A DNA stretch of 39,643 nt, taken from IMG/VR virus record IMGVR_UViG_3300008339_000149, positions 1-39,643 of that record. One strand, 5' to 3'. Positions 11,031-24,664 of this stretch are shown piece after piece (position 1 is the first letter of the stretch; each line of letters starts with the position of its first letter). This DNA comes from a virus. The translations under genes were made by a program, and so were the position numbers. The notes under the pieces were generated by a model. That model was not told the DNA's origin, made no database searches, and was given only the letters and a program-made list of their open reading frames with translations.

Positions 11031-12557
11031 ATGACTGCATCTATTTGGAATCCTCAAATCACAGTTCTAAGTGCGGCAGTTCTTGCAGCGTTTGCAGCAC
11101 CCAGCGGAGCTTCTCTTGTTGGGTACAATGCAGGCGGCGTTGGCGCAATTTCTAGAACTATTCAAGCAAAATTTCGTGAATATGTAAGCGTTACAGATTA
11201 TGGTGCGGTTGGTGATGGTATTGTTGATGACACTGCTGCAATTCAACTTGCTATCAATTCTTCTGCTGGCCAGGCGCTGCTTTTTCCTAAGGGCAATTAT
11301 AAGATCACAGCAGCTCTAAGTATTATCACATCCGGCATTACATTGGTTGGAGAGCAGTTTGGAAATGTAACTCTTATTCAGCATACAGACAACACGCCAT
11401 TCATTCGTATTGGCGATGGTACGCTTATCAATAGAGTTACTAGAGCTACTTTAGAAAGTCTTCAATGCATTCCACGGGCAGGCGCAGCTAACTGGACTTC
11501 AGCTTATGGTATTGAAGCTCGTTATGCGGGCTTTATCAATATTCTGAATTGCGAAGTCTATGGGCAAGATGGCCCAAACTATCGTATCTTCGGTGGAATT
11601 CTTTTTGACCGCGTATCTTTCAGCAACATCTATGATAGCTGGATTCGCGGCATCAAAGGTAACGGTATTTTTACGGTAGGCGCCGCAGGAAATCTAACTG
11701 CAGATATCCGCATTATGAATACCTATGTCCTCGGTTTTGAGGGCAACGGTTTGCATTTTTCTGATTACACCAACGGTCATTTTATTGTAAATGCAGAGAT
11801 TGTTACTAGCGTAGGCCAGAATGGTGTGTATCTTGACAGTGATCCAGCAAATGGAGGTGTGAATTTCTTTTTCACTAATCTCAACATGGAGTTGTCTGGT
11901 GCAACCTGTAATGGAGTTACATTAAACCGCGGGTCTCTAATTCAATTTCAAGATGGTTGGTGGGGAGCGGCCGCGGGGCAATCTGCTGTTAGAGTTGCTG
12001 CTGGAGTTTCTAATGTCACATTTAATGGCCCCTGGACTACTGAAGGTCGTTGGTTAATTGAAGGCGTAAATGTTAAAGTACACGGTCCAGGTAATATTGG
12101 TACGCTTGCTCCAATGTTTACTGCTGGCATTACTATTGTCGGAGCGACAGCCAATATCGTTGAAGTCAAAGATATGGCCATTGCACAGTTTACCAATGGT
12201 GGCATTACTTCTACAGGCACTCCTACTAATGTAACTTTGACCGGCAACGATCTAACTGCACTTGGAGGTGGTACTCCTATCGGTGGATCTTACGGCGCAG
12301 GCAGCGAAATTGAAGGAAACCGCGGAGATACGTCTAGAGGTACTGCTGCCAGTATTACTGTAGGAGCATCTCCATTTACTTACACTGCAGGCTCCAGACC
12401 TGAATCTGTTTATATTACTGGAGGAACTGTGAGTGCAATTACTATCGGCGGTGTAAATATTGCCACGGCTACTGGTCAATCAGTACAGCTGCTGCCAGGG
12501 AAATCAGTAACTGTTACTTACACAGCAGTCCCAACTATGGCAAAAGTTTTTCAGTAG
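11031..12557 (+). CDS. Tailspike with pectate-lyase-type beta-helix
   Basis: A 508-aa protein. Residues 51-76 (VSVTDYGAVGDGIVDDTAAI) are the hallmark start of the Pectate_lyase_3 family. They are followed by a long repetitive part (about 80-420) with regular Asn/Gly turns, fitting a right-handed beta-helix. Residues 1-50 would be the virion-binding anchor. The end (about 430-508) is Gly/Thr/Val-rich and may form the trimer tip. Such spikes bind and often cut capsule or O-antigen; which sugar, and whether it cuts, cannot be read here. AGGA precedes ATG 11031. Confidence 0.85.
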   Translation: MTASIWNPQITVLSAAVLAAFAAPSGASLVGYNAGGVGAISRTIQAKFREYVSVTDYGAVGDGIVDDTAAIQLAINSSAGQALLFPKGNYKITAALSIITSGITLVGEQFGNVTLIQHTDNTPFIRIGDGTLINRVTRATLESLQCIPRAGAANWTSAYGIEARYAGFINILNCEVYGQDGPNYRIFGGILFDRVSFSNIYDSWIRGIKGNGIFTVGAAGNLTADIRIMNTYVLGFEGNGLHFSDYTNGHFIVNAEIVTSVGQNGVYLDSDPANGGVNFFFTNLNMELSGATCNGVTLNRGSLIQFQDGWWGAAAGQSAVRVAAGVSNVTFNGPWTTEGRWLIEGVNVKVHGPGNIGTLAPMFTAGITIVGATANIVEVKDMAIAQFTNGGITSTGTPTNVTLTGNDLTALGGGTPIGGSYGAGSEIEGNRGDTSRGTAASITVGASPFTYTAGSRPESVYITGGTVSAITIGGVNIATATGQSVQLLPGKSVTVTYTAVPTMAKVFQ

Positions 12558-12590
12558 TGACATTTAATCTCCAACTAATTGGCATTGTCT

Positions 12591-14192
12591 ATGGGACAGA
12601 TCGCATATCGCGCTAATCTTAGCTCTGCTACGTTCCCAATGACAATTGCGGACGGTGGTAGAACTGTAATTGTTCCGGGGCCAGATCAGAACTTTGATAG
12701 ACGAGTTGACCCACAGGGGGAACAGAAAGATGCAGGCATTCCTCAGGCATTGTATCTGGAGAATGTTATGCCCACGCCTAATGGATATCAGAGCGTAGGC
12801 TACAAAACCTTAGCCGCCCTTCCTGCCCCCGGGCCAACTTCTGGAGGTACAGGATCTGCAATTGTTAGGGGGTCTGCATACTTATATGTGGCAAGTGCTC
12901 TCACTGGAGACATTCGTAGATTCCTCTGTTTATTTCGTAGCCAAGCTAGTTTTTCTAACAGGGACGTTGTTGCTTCTAGCTTTACAACTGGGATTTTTGC
13001 TTGGACTTACGCAACTGGAGCTATGCCCTTTCCAGTGGGGGAGTTCCTTTCTACCACCCGTGTACGAAATGCAACTTATGTATACTCTGATGGTGCCTTC
13101 TACACTGTAGATAACCCTGGTAGCGATGTACTTAATTTCACTAATATTTCCGGTAGTATTGTAGGTATTGCTACTCTTAGTGATGTTGTCTGTATTTGGT
13201 CCTGTGCCAACTATTTGTTGGTTGTATTGAAGTCTGGCCTCGTTATGTGGTCCTCGCTTCTTACAATCACTGATTTCACTTCTTCACTCATTAACGGAGC
13301 CGGGCAGATTTTTCCTAACGATCTTAATCTAAGAGTTAAGTTTGTTAAAGAAGCTGCAAATGGTTTCTATATGTACACAGAGTCTGGAATTGTCTATGGA
13401 CAGTACACAGGCAATGCTCGGTATCCGTTCAAGTTCACTCCAGTAAAAGACAGCGGCGGGTATGATTTTTCTTACCAAGCATTTGGAGAGAGCCGGAGTA
13501 GCACACAATATGCTATCGACTCAACTTCTAATGTTCGTATAATCTCAGGACAACAAGCACAACTTATTGCCTCTGATATCTCAAGCTTTTTGGAAAAAAC
13601 TAAAAAAGTTGAGGAACTAGATTATATCGCCAACACATTCTCAACTGGTAATGTAACTTCCACCAAAAAACTTACATATCTTCTTGATAAATACGTACTA
13701 GTTAAATACACGACTGGTACTAACTCTTATTTTCTTGTATACGATACAGGCTTGGCAAGATATGGAAAACTTAAGGTGCAAGGAGACGTGTACACAGATC
13801 TCAATAGCTTGTACATCTTTGGTACCGATCAAGGTTCTGTAGGCTATCAACTCTCTTTTAATGTCTACGATACTGACTTTCCTGCAGCTTCTGTAATTCT
13901 CCTAGGCAAGTTCCAGTATGTTCGCTCCCGTATGATGCAGATGGAGGAGATTGAAATTGAAGGACCACAAAACACTGCGATTATTCCTTCTCCTAATTTC
14001 TCTCTTGCTCTCATCCCTAGCACAGATGGTCGCAATTTTGATGCTCCTATTCCCTTGACTGCTCGATCAATCAATGGCGGCTTGGCAGTTTATAACTGTC
14101 ACCACACAGCTCAGAACCACTCGATTCTAATCAAGGGTGCTTTCTCCATTAACACTCTGCAGCTTAAATTTGTACCTGGAGGGGAGCGATGA
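12591..14192 (+). CDS. Tail nozzle/hub-like structural protein
   Basis: A 533-aa protein from ATG 12591. A TTG at 12579 would add four residues, and neither start has a clear ribosome site. The sequence is beta-rich throughout with repeated aromatic Gly-Tyr and Asn-Gly turns. An early segment (PQALYLENVMPTPNGYQSVG, about 52-71) is of the type found at the N-terminus of podovirus tail nozzle proteins (P22 gp10/T7 gp12 role). Position after adaptor and spike and before a short fibre gene fits. A beta-propeller fold is likely but not shown. Other tail structural roles are possible. Confidence 0.55.
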   Translation: MGQIAYRANLSSATFPMTIADGGRTVIVPGPDQNFDRRVDPQGEQKDAGIPQALYLENVMPTPNGYQSVGYKTLAALPAPGPTSGGTGSAIVRGSAYLYVASALTGDIRRFLCLFRSQASFSNRDVVASSFTTGIFAWTYATGAMPFPVGEFLSTTRVRNATYVYSDGAFYTVDNPGSDVLNFTNISGSIVGIATLSDVVCIWSCANYLLVVLKSGLVMWSSLLTITDFTSSLINGAGQIFPNDLNLRVKFVKEAANGFYMYTESGIVYGQYTGNARYPFKFTPVKDSGGYDFSYQAFGESRSSTQYAIDSTSNVRIISGQQAQLIASDISSFLEKTKKVEELDYIANTFSTGNVTSTKKLTYLLDKYVLVKYTTGTNSYFLVYDTGLARYGKLKVQGDVYTDLNSLYIFGTDQGSVGYQLSFNVYDTDFPAASVILLGKFQYVRSRMMQMEEIEIEGPQNTAIIPSPNFSLALIPSTDGRNFDAPIPLTARSINGGLAVYNCHHTAQNHSILIKGAFSINTLQLKFVPGGER

Positions 14193-20100: not shown

Positions 20101-22149
20101 TACGAATCAGTTCGCCTGAATTACGAGCCTCAGTTTGCTCTCCTGGAAGATCTAGGCCGCCAGTATTCTCTGGTGGAGACCTCTAAGTTCGCATCCCGCG
20201 CGGACATGATTGAAGCACAATCTAAGAATCCGTACTTCAATCAGATTAAGACAGCTCTGGATATTTCCAAGATCAATGAGCACCCGCTAGTCTATGGAGC
20301 TAATAAGCTTCTGGATACTGCGGTGTCTAAAGCCTGGGCATCCATTACTCGTACATTCGATGAGATTAAATCTCCAGGCGAGCTTGATCGAATCAATGCC
20401 CTGACAGCAGAATATGGTATTCAGCCAGCTTACTATGATGCTGCAATGCAGGCACTTGTAAATCACACAGCGCCGCGTGGAGCATTGACTCGCTTTGTTC
20501 GTGGAGCTAATGCAATTCTCTCTCGCTTCACTCTTGGCCTTGATCCTCTTAACGCACTGAACAACGTTATTGGATCTAATGTCCTGCGTGGAACTGAGAT
20601 GGGATTGTTGACTCGTGCGATTCGAGAGGGCAATCAGGCGGTTGCTGGTGATCTGTCAGCTCTTGCAAAGATCAAGCTTCCCGGCGTAGATGCTGAAGTT
20701 CTGTCTCCCACGAAACTTCTGGCTCAGGCTATTACGAATTTCTGGAAAGATGCGAAACAGCCGGTGGTTGTGCGGATGACAGATGCAGGTCCAGTGTATA
20801 AACTGGATGCAAAAGGCAACACTGTTTTATCCGACTACGGTCCGCTCATGGCTAAATACCGTGATATGCAGATCATTAAAGATCGTGCAGAGCAGCTTAA
20901 AATGCTGGTGGATGATTTCACCCTGAAAGGAACTGAGTCTGCTGCGGAACTTGATACTCGGATGGCACGTGGGTTTGCCAGAGCTAAAGAGCTTACATCT
21001 GAGAAACTCGACACTGCAGAAAAGCTGACTGGCAATACTTTCGCAGAAGAGTTTAACAGATTCATTTCCGCCAATGTGATGGATCAGATTACATCCATTG
21101 CAGTAAAGCATGGATTGATGGATGATGCGACTGCTCGCACTTATATCAATACATTTGTGAATCGGGTGGAAGGGAACATTGTTGCTAGCCAGCGGCCCTT
21201 GATTTTCCAAGGTCCTATTGGTCAGGCAATCTCGCTCTTCCAATCTTATCAATTCAACCTCATCCAACAGCTTCTTCGTTTTACTGCAGAAGGTAAAGCG
21301 AAAGATCTTGCTATGTTGGCTGGCCTGCAATCAACTCTGTATGGCTACCAATCTCTCCCGGGATTCCAGGCAATCAATGTCCACATCATTGGACAGCTCG
21401 GTGGCAATGATGCGCACAAGGATTTGTACGATATCACATATGGAGCAGTTGGAAGAACTGCAGGAGATTTCATCCTATATGGAATTCCCTCAACCCTTCT
21501 CGATACCAACATCTACTCTCGCGGCGATGTCAATCCACGACATCTGACTATTCTTCCCACGAGCTTACAGGAAACTCCGATCGTCGCTGGTTGGGGGAAG
21601 TTCTTTGGTTCGATCTATGAGACCTCTAAGAGAATTGCTGGCGGCGGAGATGTGTGGGAGACTTTCCTGCAAGGTGTGGAGCACAATGGTATCAACCGCC
21701 CACTCGCAGGTTTAGCTCAAACTGTTCAAGCCTTTGGTCCTGAAGGTATGGCATATTCCACATCTAACAAGGGAACTATCCTCTATCAAAATGATTTGAT
21801 GAGCCTTGCTACACTTACGCGTCTTGCTGGTGGTAGGCCAATGGACGAAGCAATTGTGAATGATGCAATGTTTCGAGTGAGAACTTACGAAGCAAGGCGC
21901 CGGGAAAAGTTGCTGAGTCTAGGTGAGAAAGTTAAGGGCACTCTTATCCAGGGAAACCAACCCACCGATGAACAGATCAATCAGTTTGCTGAAGAGTATG
22001 CAAAACTCGGCGGCAAGCAGAAACAGTTCAATAAGTGGATGATGGAGATGTATAAGAATGCAAACACAGCGCAGGCTGAAAAGCTTGCAGAATCTTTAAA
22101 CAATCCGTACTCCTATAAGATACAACTTCTTATGGGCGGCGGAGAATAG
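17152..22149 (+). CDS. Giant internal virion (ejection) protein (1665 aa)
   Basis: The largest gene here, starting 2 nt after the previous stop with AAGGA upstream. Two glycine-rich hydrophobic segments lie at about 117-134 and 234-252, suited to crossing the host membrane. The middle is mostly helical with many charged residues. The last 350 residues contain a Phe/Gln-rich stretch (QGPIGQAISLFQSYQFNL) and Gly/Leu segments resembling C-terminal domains of large polyvalent proteins. I see no clear lytic transglycosylase site. It fits the largest ejection protein (T7 gp16 role) that forms the channel for genome entry. A frame of this length without disruption is clearly functional. Confidence 0.75.
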   Translation: MSDLFTFVRPPQSTPAPVEEEDGDSPSLPFQIADLHNISNGGVSWTNPLSWGEKLQDMGRFIAVSGLSGINSFYNTGAYVGQFFDPGIQERDTADWITELDTDLGNYYRVNQESADVTGFILGAIVPGLGGIRVFNAGQIALKTAINTGKVGGTTGRALGLLVPKTDEFMSLAMKDITASTTTLNLVNANTTKAIGAGLWQNVMEAAAFETMVQATMFRSPILQQQDGWDIAQNIAIGGLLGGGVAGVFGAARLRGQLKTAIREEEVLRRPFQERVQFSVASPDANRLVQLSFDSEMAAVPITLRAADGTLIENNFAATKTLYEQKIQANALDQRTAWNNLSTDSQLGNTVANLMSPVIKDGRLVPGFAQQTYESASGAIKILRAGDQHPLELAQAKALAKGEAVENPIAIRFIKLQGDDSGGVFDSPGAYLSFADRYATPDKVRAAIRESFGFKQKFEATNRWSALKLKGAKAVEEAEARHIWAARSSGMLKEIPENAVIDRHDLPMLQRAYADGRTDIKIVSGEGPTVSIDPVTSLEELYKIIKQSKNETIEHFGRSFLTKKGKAKKGKEPGLIPKAQAQDGAIGIIADVRKNYLDGNPSGVEADDLFAMSAAGRKYQNQLSARGLSLTTPEAATPVQFLPKYAKVVYEQSKDIAALNENVLDGIAHYAAMEKIYVESAQRAAAKVLGGWAEQLPALKKNKLVTATRDDPSAGLFSNDSSAYGTVGSSMSFIGSIVRAIKQDFRKNLNDTLAPAMTRMAGKTEAVFEFEGLNQKITRTGKQFYLREAEDGTQVLIDKKLVKRNKAGEEEINWEAAEDGVNAFNIRNVETAEFIRAHIAASGLRTQNFREIRAAQGKVDNKDPEVFRPIRPDLKQYAHFAFVKDPRVTGTGHMTMIHAASEKELAQLAERVPPQYKVIYKRDTEDYFKARDEYDYQRTLNENYLDSELANNGVFSNFFPKSDPQKIADDILQQHYRESDTLVYESVRLNYEPQFALLEDLGRQYSLVETSKFASRADMIEAQSKNPYFNQIKTALDISKINEHPLVYGANKLLDTAVSKAWASITRTFDEIKSPGELDRINALTAEYGIQPAYYDAAMQALVNHTAPRGALTRFVRGANAILSRFTLGLDPLNALNNVIGSNVLRGTEMGLLTRAIREGNQAVAGDLSALAKIKLPGVDAEVLSPTKLLAQAITNFWKDAKQPVVVRMTDAGPVYKLDAKGNTVLSDYGPLMAKYRDMQIIKDRAEQLKMLVDDFTLKGTESAAELDTRMARGFARAKELTSEKLDTAEKLTGNTFAEEFNRFISANVMDQITSIAVKHGLMDDATARTYINTFVNRVEGNIVASQRPLIFQGPIGQAISLFQSYQFNLIQQLLRFTAEGKAKDLAMLAGLQSTLYGYQSLPGFQAINVHIIGQLGGNDAHKDLYDITYGAVGRTAGDFILYGIPSTLLDTNIYSRGDVNPRHLTILPTSLQETPIVAGWGKFFGSIYETSKRIAGGGDVWETFLQGVEHNGINRPLAGLAQTVQAFGPEGMAYSTSNKGTILYQNDLMSLATLTRLAGGRPMDEAIVNDAMFRVRTYEARRREKLLSLGEKVKGTLIQGNQPTDEQINQFAEEYAKLGGKQKQFNKWMMEMYKNANTAQAEKLAESLNNPYSYKIQLLMGGGE

Positions 22150-22161
22150 GAGAAAGTGGTG

Positions 22162-22398
22162 ATGAGTAATACTAGTGATCCGATTAAATTTGCCCTAGCT
22201 GTAACTCCTAATGACACGAATGTACTTACGCCGTTTAGGTGTTTGTATGTTGGGGTGTCTGGAGATGTAGCTGTGCGTATGTATGGTGGAGGTAACAACA
22301 TTACTTTCACTGGACTTGCAGTTGGCTGGCATCCAATTCAAGGTGATAAAGTTTTAGCCACTGGCACAACTGCTAGTGACATTGTTGCTGGTTGGTAA
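22162..22398 (+). CDS. Head-spike base protein, RcGTA Rcc01079-like
   Basis: A 78-aa protein from ATG 22162 with AGGAG 9 nt upstream; an in-frame GTG at 22156 is too close to that site. It matches the compact beta fold described for the head-spike base of the Rhodobacter gene transfer agent: LAVTPNDTNVL, then RCLYVGVSGDVAVRM, then a GW-type turn and VLATGTTASDIVAGW at the end. In that particle the protein sits on the capsid vertices and carries a fibre. Three possible fibre or enzyme genes follow it directly. Confidence 0.75.
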   Translation: MSNTSDPIKFALAVTPNDTNVLTPFRCLYVGVSGDVAVRMYGGGNNITFTGLAVGWHPIQGDKVLATGTTASDIVAGW

Positions 22399-22434
22399 TT
22401 TGTACCCACATCGATAGATTAAGGAGAATCCTTC

Positions 22435-22857
22435 ATGGCTGCTTATGTGAAATTTGAGGCTTTCACTGAAATCCAACTTACCACTCCGGTGGATTGGAAC
22501 ACTGATACCATTAAGCTGGCGCTTACAAATACTGCGCCCAATGCTGCAACTGGTGATTTCTTTAATGATATCACTGAGATTGGTGCAGGTAATGGTTATA
22601 CCGCTGGCGGTAATACTCTTAGCATCTCTGTATCTCGTTCTGGTGGAGTGACTACTATCACTGCAACTGACAGTGTGTTTACTGCATCTGGTGGATCTAT
22701 TGGTCCGTTCCGTTATGTGATTATGTATAAGAGCACGGGTACTGCTTCTACTTCTCCGCTTGTGGCTTATTGGGATTATGGTTCTAGTATCACTCTGTTG
22801 AACGGTGAGACTTTTACTGCGGACATTGGAGCCGGCGGCTTGTTTACGCTGACCTGA
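22435..22857 (+). CDS. Structural protein, putative spike/fibre component (140 aa)
   Basis: A 140-aa beta-rich protein with the common phage structural pattern DTIKLALTNTAP followed by EIGAGNGYTAGGNT, then alternating strands and an end of LFTLT. AAGGAG precedes ATG 22435. It lies between the spike-base and esterase genes, so it may link the enzyme to the virion. The exact position in the particle cannot be read from sequence. Confidence 0.65.
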   Translation: MAAYVKFEAFTEIQLTTPVDWNTDTIKLALTNTAPNAATGDFFNDITEIGAGNGYTAGGNTLSISVSRSGGVTTITATDSVFTASGGSIGPFRYVIMYKSTGTASTSPLVAYWDYGSSITLLNGETFTADIGAGGLFTLT

Positions 22858-22858
22858 A

Positions 22859-23653
22859 ATGGCAAACAATACATTATATATTGGATGGGCAGCGGTACCT
22901 ACTGGTAATGCTAGAATGTCTTTCTGGGGGCAGAGCAATGCTCAGGGCGCTGCCCTCCGGAGTGGCATTGCAGCAATTACTGCTGATCCTACATTAGTAG
23001 ACTGGGATAATGGTACCTACACTTTTCCTCGTGTAATGTTTTGGAATGGCACAGCGTACGCTACATATGTGCCAGGGTCAAACACAGGTACCGATCCTAC
23101 TTTACTCGGGCCTGAGTTTGGCATGGCAGTTCGCTGGATGAGGGAGACATCTAGCGGAATTCTTTATATGGATAAGAACGCATTTGGCGGAACGTCCATT
23201 GACTTGTTTGAGCCCCCCTCCGCAGCTAGGTGGTTAGATGGACTTACAAGTCGTGCGGCCCAAGATGCATGGCTTGCTAGTAACAGTGTAGTTATTGATA
23301 ATCTGAAAACATTCTGGCTGTGGAGCCAAGGAGAAGCTGACTCGGCGGATACTCAATCTCAGTATCAAATACCCATGCAAGCTATTGTTGATGCTATTGA
23401 GATTAATGGGATCATGCCTTATCGTGGAGTGCTCACGGATATTCCTACAGGGAGTCCTAGGTTCAATTCCGCAGTAACCGCAGCAAAGCAAGCAGTAGCA
23501 GATACAACTGGTGGCCTTCTTGTTAAACAAATTGAGCCTGCATTCCCGACATATTTTGAGGCAGATAACCTGCACTTAAATGCCCGCGGTCAGGTGCAAC
23601 GTTCTTATACTGCGTATTCGTTCTTCTTTGACGCTCCCACAATTACGGTGTAA
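22859..23653 (+). CDS. SGNH/sialate O-acetylesterase-like carbohydrate esterase
   Basis: A 264-aa protein with the blocks of SGNH hydrolases. Block I is FWGQSNAQG with nucleophile Ser26. A Gly block is FGGTSI (about 109-114). WSQGEADS (155-162) is typical of the sialate O-acetylesterase branch, and DNLH (Asp236, His239) completes the triad. Such enzymes remove acetyl groups from polysaccharides. No signal peptide is seen, so it is probably virion-bound. It starts 1 nt after the previous stop and is coupled to the spike-base operon, suggesting it edits host capsule or O-antigen during adsorption. Substrate is unknown. Confidence 0.85.
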   Translation: MANNTLYIGWAAVPTGNARMSFWGQSNAQGAALRSGIAAITADPTLVDWDNGTYTFPRVMFWNGTAYATYVPGSNTGTDPTLLGPEFGMAVRWMRETSSGILYMDKNAFGGTSIDLFEPPSAARWLDGLTSRAAQDAWLASNSVVIDNLKTFWLWSQGEADSADTQSQYQIPMQAIVDAIEINGIMPYRGVLTDIPTGSPRFNSAVTAAKQAVADTTGGLLVKQIEPAFPTYFEADNLHLNARGQVQRSYTAYSFFFDAPTITV

Positions 23654-23655
23654 TC

Positions 23656-24609
23656 ATGGCACGAAGCGACAACTTCAATAGAGCGGATACTGGAGCAGGA
23701 GGGCTTGGGACTCCAAGCGATGGCGGTAGTGCCTGGAATGATCGTAGCTCAGTTTTTCAGATATCTAGCAATAAAGCTAAAAGTACTGGCGGAGCTCAGG
23801 CGTTAGCTGTATTGACGGATACACTTTCAAATGTTGAACTTAACGTTACTTGTGTTACTGGAGCTTCATCCGATATTTGGATCCCATTTCGCTTTGTAGA
23901 CGATGGCAATTATTGGATTGCTGTTGTTGGCTCAGGCGACGGCCCTCGTCTTTTTAAACGAGTATCAGGTGGTTTCACACAAGTGGGATCCACGGGCTCG
24001 GGAACATTAGCAGCGGGAACACATCTTATTACAGTAGAGGCAAATGGAAACTCCATTGAGCTTTTAGTAAACGGTGTTAGCAAAGTTGGTCCAATTACAG
24101 ATTCTTTTCAGTCGACAGCAGTAGCTCACGGCATTGGTAGTAATTCGGACACTACAACTACTTTTGAAGATTTTTCAACAGTAGCTGCTGGAGGCTATGT
24201 AATTACTCTAGACCCCGGTTCTTATTCTATCAGCGGCCAAGCAGTTACAACTCTAGCTACTCGTCTTGTTGCTTTAAACTCAAGCTCCTATTCTTGGGCA
24301 GGTCAGGCTGTAACTCTTACATACGAACAGCCAGGTGTAACAGTTCTAGCTCTTGACCCAGGAAGTTATGTATTCAGTGGATCAAATGTTTTACGAGCCA
24401 TTAGCTTTGCAGCGAATTCTGGATCGTACACTATCTCAGGACAAGACTTAAACTTCACCCGCACATTTCCGCAGGCTTATTCTATCACTATTGAGAATGC
24501 TGCATACAATATGACTGGGCGTGCAATTGCACTTCGCTGGTCAGGAGAGCCAGTATCTGACTTTATATCAAATAAGATTTCGATCAGTATTGGAGCAAGA
24601 GTCGGATAA
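23656..24609 (+). CDS. Lectin-like fibre protein with five short tandem repeats
   Basis: A 317-aa protein. Residues 1-175 form a beta-sandwich-like part (SDNFNRAD start, WIPFRFVDDGNYW near 75-87, VEANGNSIELLVNG near 127-140), like laminin-G/concanavalin-type sugar-binding domains. Residues 182-292 hold five repeats of about 23-26 aa with core GSYxxxGQxV, at about 182-197, 205-220, 232-245, 251-265 and 277-292. It ends the late operon, 2 nt after the esterase gene. A sugar-binding fibre that presents the esterase to its substrate is the simplest reading, but this is inference. Confidence 0.65.
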   Translation: MARSDNFNRADTGAGGLGTPSDGGSAWNDRSSVFQISSNKAKSTGGAQALAVLTDTLSNVELNVTCVTGASSDIWIPFRFVDDGNYWIAVVGSGDGPRLFKRVSGGFTQVGSTGSGTLAAGTHLITVEANGNSIELLVNGVSKVGPITDSFQSTAVAHGIGSNSDTTTTFEDFSTVAAGGYVITLDPGSYSISGQAVTTLATRLVALNSSSYSWAGQAVTLTYEQPGVTVLALDPGSYVFSGSNVLRAISFAANSGSYTISGQDLNFTRTFPQAYSITIENAAYNMTGRAIALRWSGEPVSDFISNKISISIGARVG

Positions 24610-24621
24610 AAATTCCAGACA

Positions 24622-24664
24622 TAAAAAAGCCCCCAAAGGATTTCTCCTGAGGGGGTTTTCTTTT
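24622..24664. terminator. Bidirectional Rho-independent terminator between convergent units
   Basis: CCCCC (24630-24634) pairs with GGGGG (24651-24655), and inner AGGA/TCCT bases extend the stem. A T-rich tract follows on the plus strand (TTTTCTTTT, 24656-24664), and a run of six A precedes it, giving a U-run on the minus strand. It lies between the last rightward stop (24609) and the last leftward stop (24674) and can end both transcription units. Confidence 0.9.

Follow-up and report, generated by a model that had tools for sequence, protein, structure and literature searches.

An exchangeable gene cassette with an RcGTA-type spike base and a putative SGNH esterase in a Fredfastierviridae-like podophage

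Overview of the cassette

The DNA considered here (the window) is a virus record of 39,643 bases, analysed by sequence and predicted structure. A block of four genes in it is an exchangeable cassette occupying a hypervariable slot and swapped whole between near-identical phages, a point absent from the preliminary description of this stretch. As a whole, the block is best read as a host-surface cassette combining a spike base for capsid vertices, gene 4 as a probable fibre and an O-acetylesterase acting on polysaccharide, with a probability of about 0.5. By searches with its portal and ejection proteins, the phage falls close to PaMx41 (Fredfastierviridae), Tiera and EBPR podovirus 3. It is a Fredfastierviridae-like podophage whose virion operon has the block at its 3' end. 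All four genes were confirmed; they and their surroundings are as follows.

11031..12557, + strand: pectate-lyase-like tailspike gene (PF12708), replaced too in sister phage L184
17152..22149, + strand: ejection-protein-like gene, matching PaMx41-type ejection/structural proteins; the block's left border falls at its stop codon
22162..22398, + strand: gene 1, spike base protein of the RCAP_Rcc01079 family (78 aa; alternative in-frame GTG start at 22156)
22435..22857, + strand: gene 2, phrog_644 family protein (140 aa; phrog_644 at 1.4e-22)
22859..23653, + strand: gene 3, classed as a SASA-type SGNH esterase (264 aa; PF03629)
22928..22939, + strand: GQSN block of gene 3, with predicted nucleophile Ser26
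23564..23575, + strand: DNLH block of gene 3, with predicted Asp236 and His239
23656..24609, + strand: gene 4, probable beta-sandwich (lectin-like) domain at residues 1-180 and five degenerate YxxxG repeats (317 aa)
24577..24606, + strand: C-terminal alternating peptide of gene 4, ISISIGARVG, a candidate docking peptide for the base
24629..24664, no strand assigned: terminator-like hairpin 3' of gene 4, unchanged in L184; right border of the exchanged block

The four genes had been described as adjacent and coupled. This holds for genes 2 to 4, with only 1 and 2 nt between them, but gene 1 stands apart, with 36 nt between it and gene 2, which has a ribosome-site-like sequence of its own. The block is indeed far from the tailspike gene, which lies about 9.6 kb upstream.

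The slot and its contents in related phages

The sister phage L184 is about 92% identical to the window over the virion genes compared. Its homology stops at position 22148, in the stop codon of the ejection gene, and restarts at 24614, five bases past the stop codon of gene 4; the counterpart of the block between these points consists of unrelated genes. Also replaced in L184 are the tailspike and the middle of the gene that follows it (approximately 12803-13901). The joint replacement of tailspike and block points to host-surface recognition. In the comparison of window positions 11031-14192 with L184, three regions were seen to differ together: the tailspike, the middle of the next gene and the slot.

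Among 87 distinct slots sampled from relatives, some of them empty, 15 contain spike bases, and in three of these (L215, L239 and L265) the base is the sole slot gene. The order of the block was found in part in a cousin, L172, which has a base, a gene 2 homologue and a gene-4-like protein in the same succession, but with a BNR_4 protein where the esterase stands in the window. Slots without a base carry SGNH hydrolases (L240, L183 and, more weakly, L235), glycoside-hydrolase-like proteins (L234), or tailspike-type domains, namely a K1-lyase C-terminal domain (L272) and, weakly, an endosialidase barrel (L238). A short lipoprotein-like gene is found 5' of the base in three relatives (L172:10219-10428, L173:10157-10396 and L175:10218-10415) and is missing from the window.

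The spike base

With 68.1 bits, gene 1 clears the cut-off of 28 set for NCBIfam NF048002 ("spike base protein, RCAP_Rcc01079 family"), and it matches phrog_12296 at 7e-20. The name of the latter, "tail fiber", was discarded as an indication of location, the solved members of the family being capsid proteins; it seems to be an inherited label. A 28-sequence profile, which includes one Rhodobacter-phage row, matched the Rcc01079 chain in the PDB (6tb9) with E=4.5e-18 and a "Spike Base Protein" (8cjz, from the mature capsid of phage Carin1) at 6e-10; searching with the single sequence also recovered Rcc01079 (E=0.0017). The AF2 model (pLDDT 86.6) is a small jellyroll, for which Foldseek returned good matches to those two structures only (6tb9, E=1.2e-4; 8cjz, E=1.2e-3). 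The identification of 22162-22398 as an RcGTA-like spike base is thus borne out by family score, PDB profile matches and fold. Homology to Rcc01079-type proteins, on which that reading had been made to depend, is present, and the jellyroll agrees with the capsid-mounted bases of RcGTA and Carin1, in keeping with the statement that such proteins occur on the heads of gene transfer agents and some phages.

In viral contigs, base genes were found either among head genes (capsid, portal, connector and head closure) or immediately 5' of a longer protein with a GLGLG-type N-terminus. A place on the head is well supported for the base: it is homologous to two proteins mounted on capsids, and its family is often found in head clusters. 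The gene 1 product is likely to sit on the capsid.

In RcGTA, each capsid pentamer bears five bases, which grip a single fibre at its N-terminal IALGLGLGL; the aliphatic residues of this peptide occupy hydrophobic pockets of the five bases (PMC7296036). N-termini with at least four alternating aliphatic residues were found in 10 of 90 base neighbours and in 19 of 1362 background genes (p=4e-6); this and the other Fisher p-values given here err on the optimistic side, as they take related phages to be independent. A peptide of this N-terminal type was searched for in genes 2 to 4 and in the other structural genes of the window, and is absent from them. The expectation that slots with a base would as a rule encode a docking peptide, written down before further loci were fetched, failed on the fresh loci, with one new fit (L232).

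The family also shows other arrangements. Base-like domains lie inside longer proteins at L016:6855-7262, L021:6853-7260 and L045:8255-9217; two base-like proteins are encoded in L016, and likewise in L021. In seven contigs from the base loci L124-L144, a protein of 570-625 aa with a LALGVGLNL-type start is encoded about 3-4 kb beyond the base gene, so the two kinds of gene can lie apart.

Gene 2 and the coherence of the block

Gene 2 probably encodes a small virion accessory protein. A homologue lies immediately 3' of a spike base in L075 and L172 as well, and in L075 the pair is downstream of a capsid-protein-like gene (assigned by the start of its sequence only). PDB 9d93, the "wing arm" protein of a mycobacteriophage tail, is a weak match to gene 2 as well (E=0.005). 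Proteins with YxxxG-type repeats accompany phrog_644 in 26 of the 41 loci fetched with gene 2, as against one of the 106 fetched with gene 1, counts that come from partly redundant contigs. In the gene 2 loci L053-L093, phrog_644 was seen partnered with YxxxTG-repeat proteins independently of spike bases.

These associations bear on whether the four genes might be unrelated passengers of a variable slot, with no joint function. The hypervariability of the slot is consistent with this, as is the occurrence of base, phrog_644 and esterase each elsewhere without the others. Yet base and phrog_644 recur together in two other phages, phrog_644 and repeat proteins keep company at the frequencies just given, the esterase adjoins the N-terminal domain of gene 4 in L010, and the block was replaced as a unit in L184, which together make mere cohabitation very improbable.

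The esterase

The preliminary description of gene 3 as an SGNH esterase with GQSN, GE and DxxH blocks stands. The blocks fall at residues 24-27 (GQSN), 157-159 (QGE) and 236-239 (D236-x-x-H239), and gene 3 and two homologues sharing 59-64% identity with it, three sequences in all, do not differ in any of these blocks, Ser26, Asp236 and His239 included. The Pfam family SASA (PF03629) was passed narrowly, with 25.1 bits against a cut-off of 24.8, and the gene 3 profile aligned weakly (E=0.052) with a putative plant esterase, 2apj, through QGESD and DNLH. By family and catalytic residues, gene 3 is classed as an SGNH-type esterase, and its substrate is probably a polysaccharide ester. No relative of the family was found in bacterial genomes, nor any direct relative of gene 3 among named phages.

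Homologues occur in morphogenesis clusters. In L010 one of them (64% identical) lies one gene after a portal-like gene, with no base detected there, and those in L288-L291 have an N-terminal extension and belong to a siphophage-like morphogenesis cluster. More generally, the esterase was found, with or without the N-terminal domain of gene 4, in phages where no base was detected nearby.

The gene 3 sequence is a lone domain of 264 aa with no signal peptide, export signal or recognisable tail-anchor domain. A lone, anchorless domain would suit a free late enzyme outside the virion, for example one that deacetylates debris or receptors at lysis and so spares progeny from trapping. An SGNH-like hydrolase in the same slot of L183 (L183:9517-10326) carries a twin-arginine export signal, which indicates that not all slot enzymes are virion parts. 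Gene 3, however, has no such signal, is flanked at 1-2 nt on both sides by likely virion genes, and has its homologues in the morphogenesis clusters described above; a free enzyme is accordingly improbable here.

Gene 4, a candidate fibre

Gene 4 had been described as lectin-like, with five GSYxxxGQ repeats. Five units are present, but they are degenerate (YxxxG), with exact GSYxxxGQ in two only. For the lectin-like part there is no sequence-family match (no lectin family was recovered from Pfam, NCBIfam or the PDB by sequence or profile), but the nearest structures to the low-confidence model (pLDDT 41.6) are CBM66 and galectins (best E=0.018). With low confidence, then, the model suggests a probable ConA-like sugar-binding domain for gene 4, followed by the five degenerate repeats. 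A likeness to a lectin domain in L175 was set aside as too weak to use. In L010, the protein encoded next after the esterase shares 89% identity with residues 1-180 of gene 4, while the esterases themselves are 64% identical, so that the N-terminal domain behaves as a mobile module. Matches among named phages are partial, covering at most half of gene 4.

The C-terminus of gene 4 resembles the RcGTA docking peptide. Counted at alternate positions from the first I, ISISIGARVG reads I, I, I, A, V, five alternate aliphatic residues with the spacing of the RcGTA peptide. Tails related to this one end the repeat proteins in the base-bearing slots of L172, L175 and L232, and proteins adjoining the base end in LGIAIGIGI in L166 and in SISISVGLNM in L047. 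C-terminal alternating peptides are enriched near bases at p=0.014, a post hoc and uncorrected value. Repeat proteins of the gene 4 type are found in 4 of the 15 base-bearing slots and in none of the 72 others (p=0.0006, relatedness ignored). The resemblance of the last residues, ISISIGARV, to the docking peptide suggests that gene 4 is the spike fibre, an assignment we make tentatively and at somewhat less than even odds.

Head or tail

The preliminary description had gone on to propose a capsid-mounted enzyme that deacetylates host polysaccharide. The base half of this proposal is well supported, and a head-spike esterase is made plausible by SGNH-like fibres beside bases in two other phages. 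Directly after the base in L044, a protein (L044:8162-10150) starts with MIGLGLGLQ, matches PF00657 weakly and has GDS, GTND and DGTH motifs; at the same position in L038, another (L038:8230-9945) starts with MFGLGLTF and has GDS and DLSH, assigned by motif only. Both are candidate head-fibre SGNH/GDSL-like hydrolases. Profile comparison detected no homology between gene 3 and their SGNH-like domains, so that these, if real, would be independent cases. The esterase half of the proposal fared less well: genes 2 to 4 lack an N-terminal docking peptide, the base is alone in three slots, and the esterase occurs without a nearby base. A physical location of gene 3 on the head is doubtful on this evidence.

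The main competing explanation is that genes 2 to 4 make up a tail-associated adhesin and deacetylase in a general second slot for receptor-binding proteins and enzymes, with the base an independent head decoration that shares the operon. Base-free slots do contain tailspike-type domains (L272, L238) and larger SGNH proteins (L235, L240), known phage esterases are on tails (PMC13123978, PMC11654681), and gene 2 weakly resembles the mycobacteriophage tail wing protein. Against this, gene 3 has no recognisable tail anchor and repeat proteins of the gene 4 type are found in slots only alongside bases. This explanation is, overall, rather unlikely.

In the preferred reading, that of a host-surface cassette with a vertex base, the gene 1 products would form pentamers on capsid vertices, and gene 4 would be a flexible fibre docked into them by its C-terminal alternating peptide and binding a host surface polysaccharide. 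Gene 3, associated with the virion in the spike complex or nearby, would remove O-acetyl groups from that polysaccharide, which could let the phage pass the polysaccharide layer or reach its tail receptor; gene 2 may be an accessory linker or decoration protein.

Significance

The head spikes of RcGTA have so far been the worked example of capsule-binding, capsid-mounted adhesins. The spike-base family is widespread in environmental phages, with many different partners, and in the lineage of the window the slot of the base is swapped whole, along with the tailspike. An esterase mounted on the head would mean that phages act on host polysaccharide with the capsid and not just with the tail. A broader proposal, unlikely in its full extent, is that RcGTA-type vertex spikes are exchangeable enzyme mounts, in which a conserved pentameric base would take fibres by an alternating peptide of nine residues, N- or C-terminal, and cassette swaps would bring in different polysaccharide-modifying enzymes (SGNH esterases, BNR_4 proteins and others), with an O-acetylesterase on the head of the window phage. 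L184 and the window form a near-isogenic natural comparison for the head-esterase question.

Comparison with known systems

Among Fredfastierviridae and their relatives, PaMx41, Tiera and EBPR podovirus 3 share portal and ejection-protein homology and gene order with the window. No homologue of genes 1 to 4 was found in the stretches of these three genomes that were examined, where nothing or one tiny ORF lies between the ejection gene and the opposite-strand genes.

SGNH-type esterases like gene 3 are known as tailspike and tail-fibre deacetylases, in gp63.1 of E. coli phage G7C and in receptor-binding proteins of Klebsiella prophages. Such enzymes are expected to strip acetyl groups off surface polysaccharide (PMC13123978), and the phage esterases reported in that paper and in PMC11654681 are tail proteins. 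In the literature, which was incompletely covered, no phage was found to be described as carrying an esterase on its head. Unlike the G7C type, gene 3 is a lone 264-aa domain beside a head-spike base and not part of a larger anchored tail protein.

The capsid spike base of Carin1 (8cjz), for which no paper was found, shares family and fold with gene 1 and is located on a phage capsid. The RcGTA head spike, a pentamer of the base GhsA (Rcc01079) with the fibre GhsB (Rcc01080), has capsule binding as its known role (PMC7296036, PMC10218006), and GhsA and gene 1 share a curated family and a fold. As in RcGTA, a sugar-binding partner is likely. Unlike RcGTA, the window has no fibre with an N-terminal IALGLGLGL; gene 4 has its alternating peptide at the C-terminus instead, and the block adds an esterase and a phrog_644 protein.
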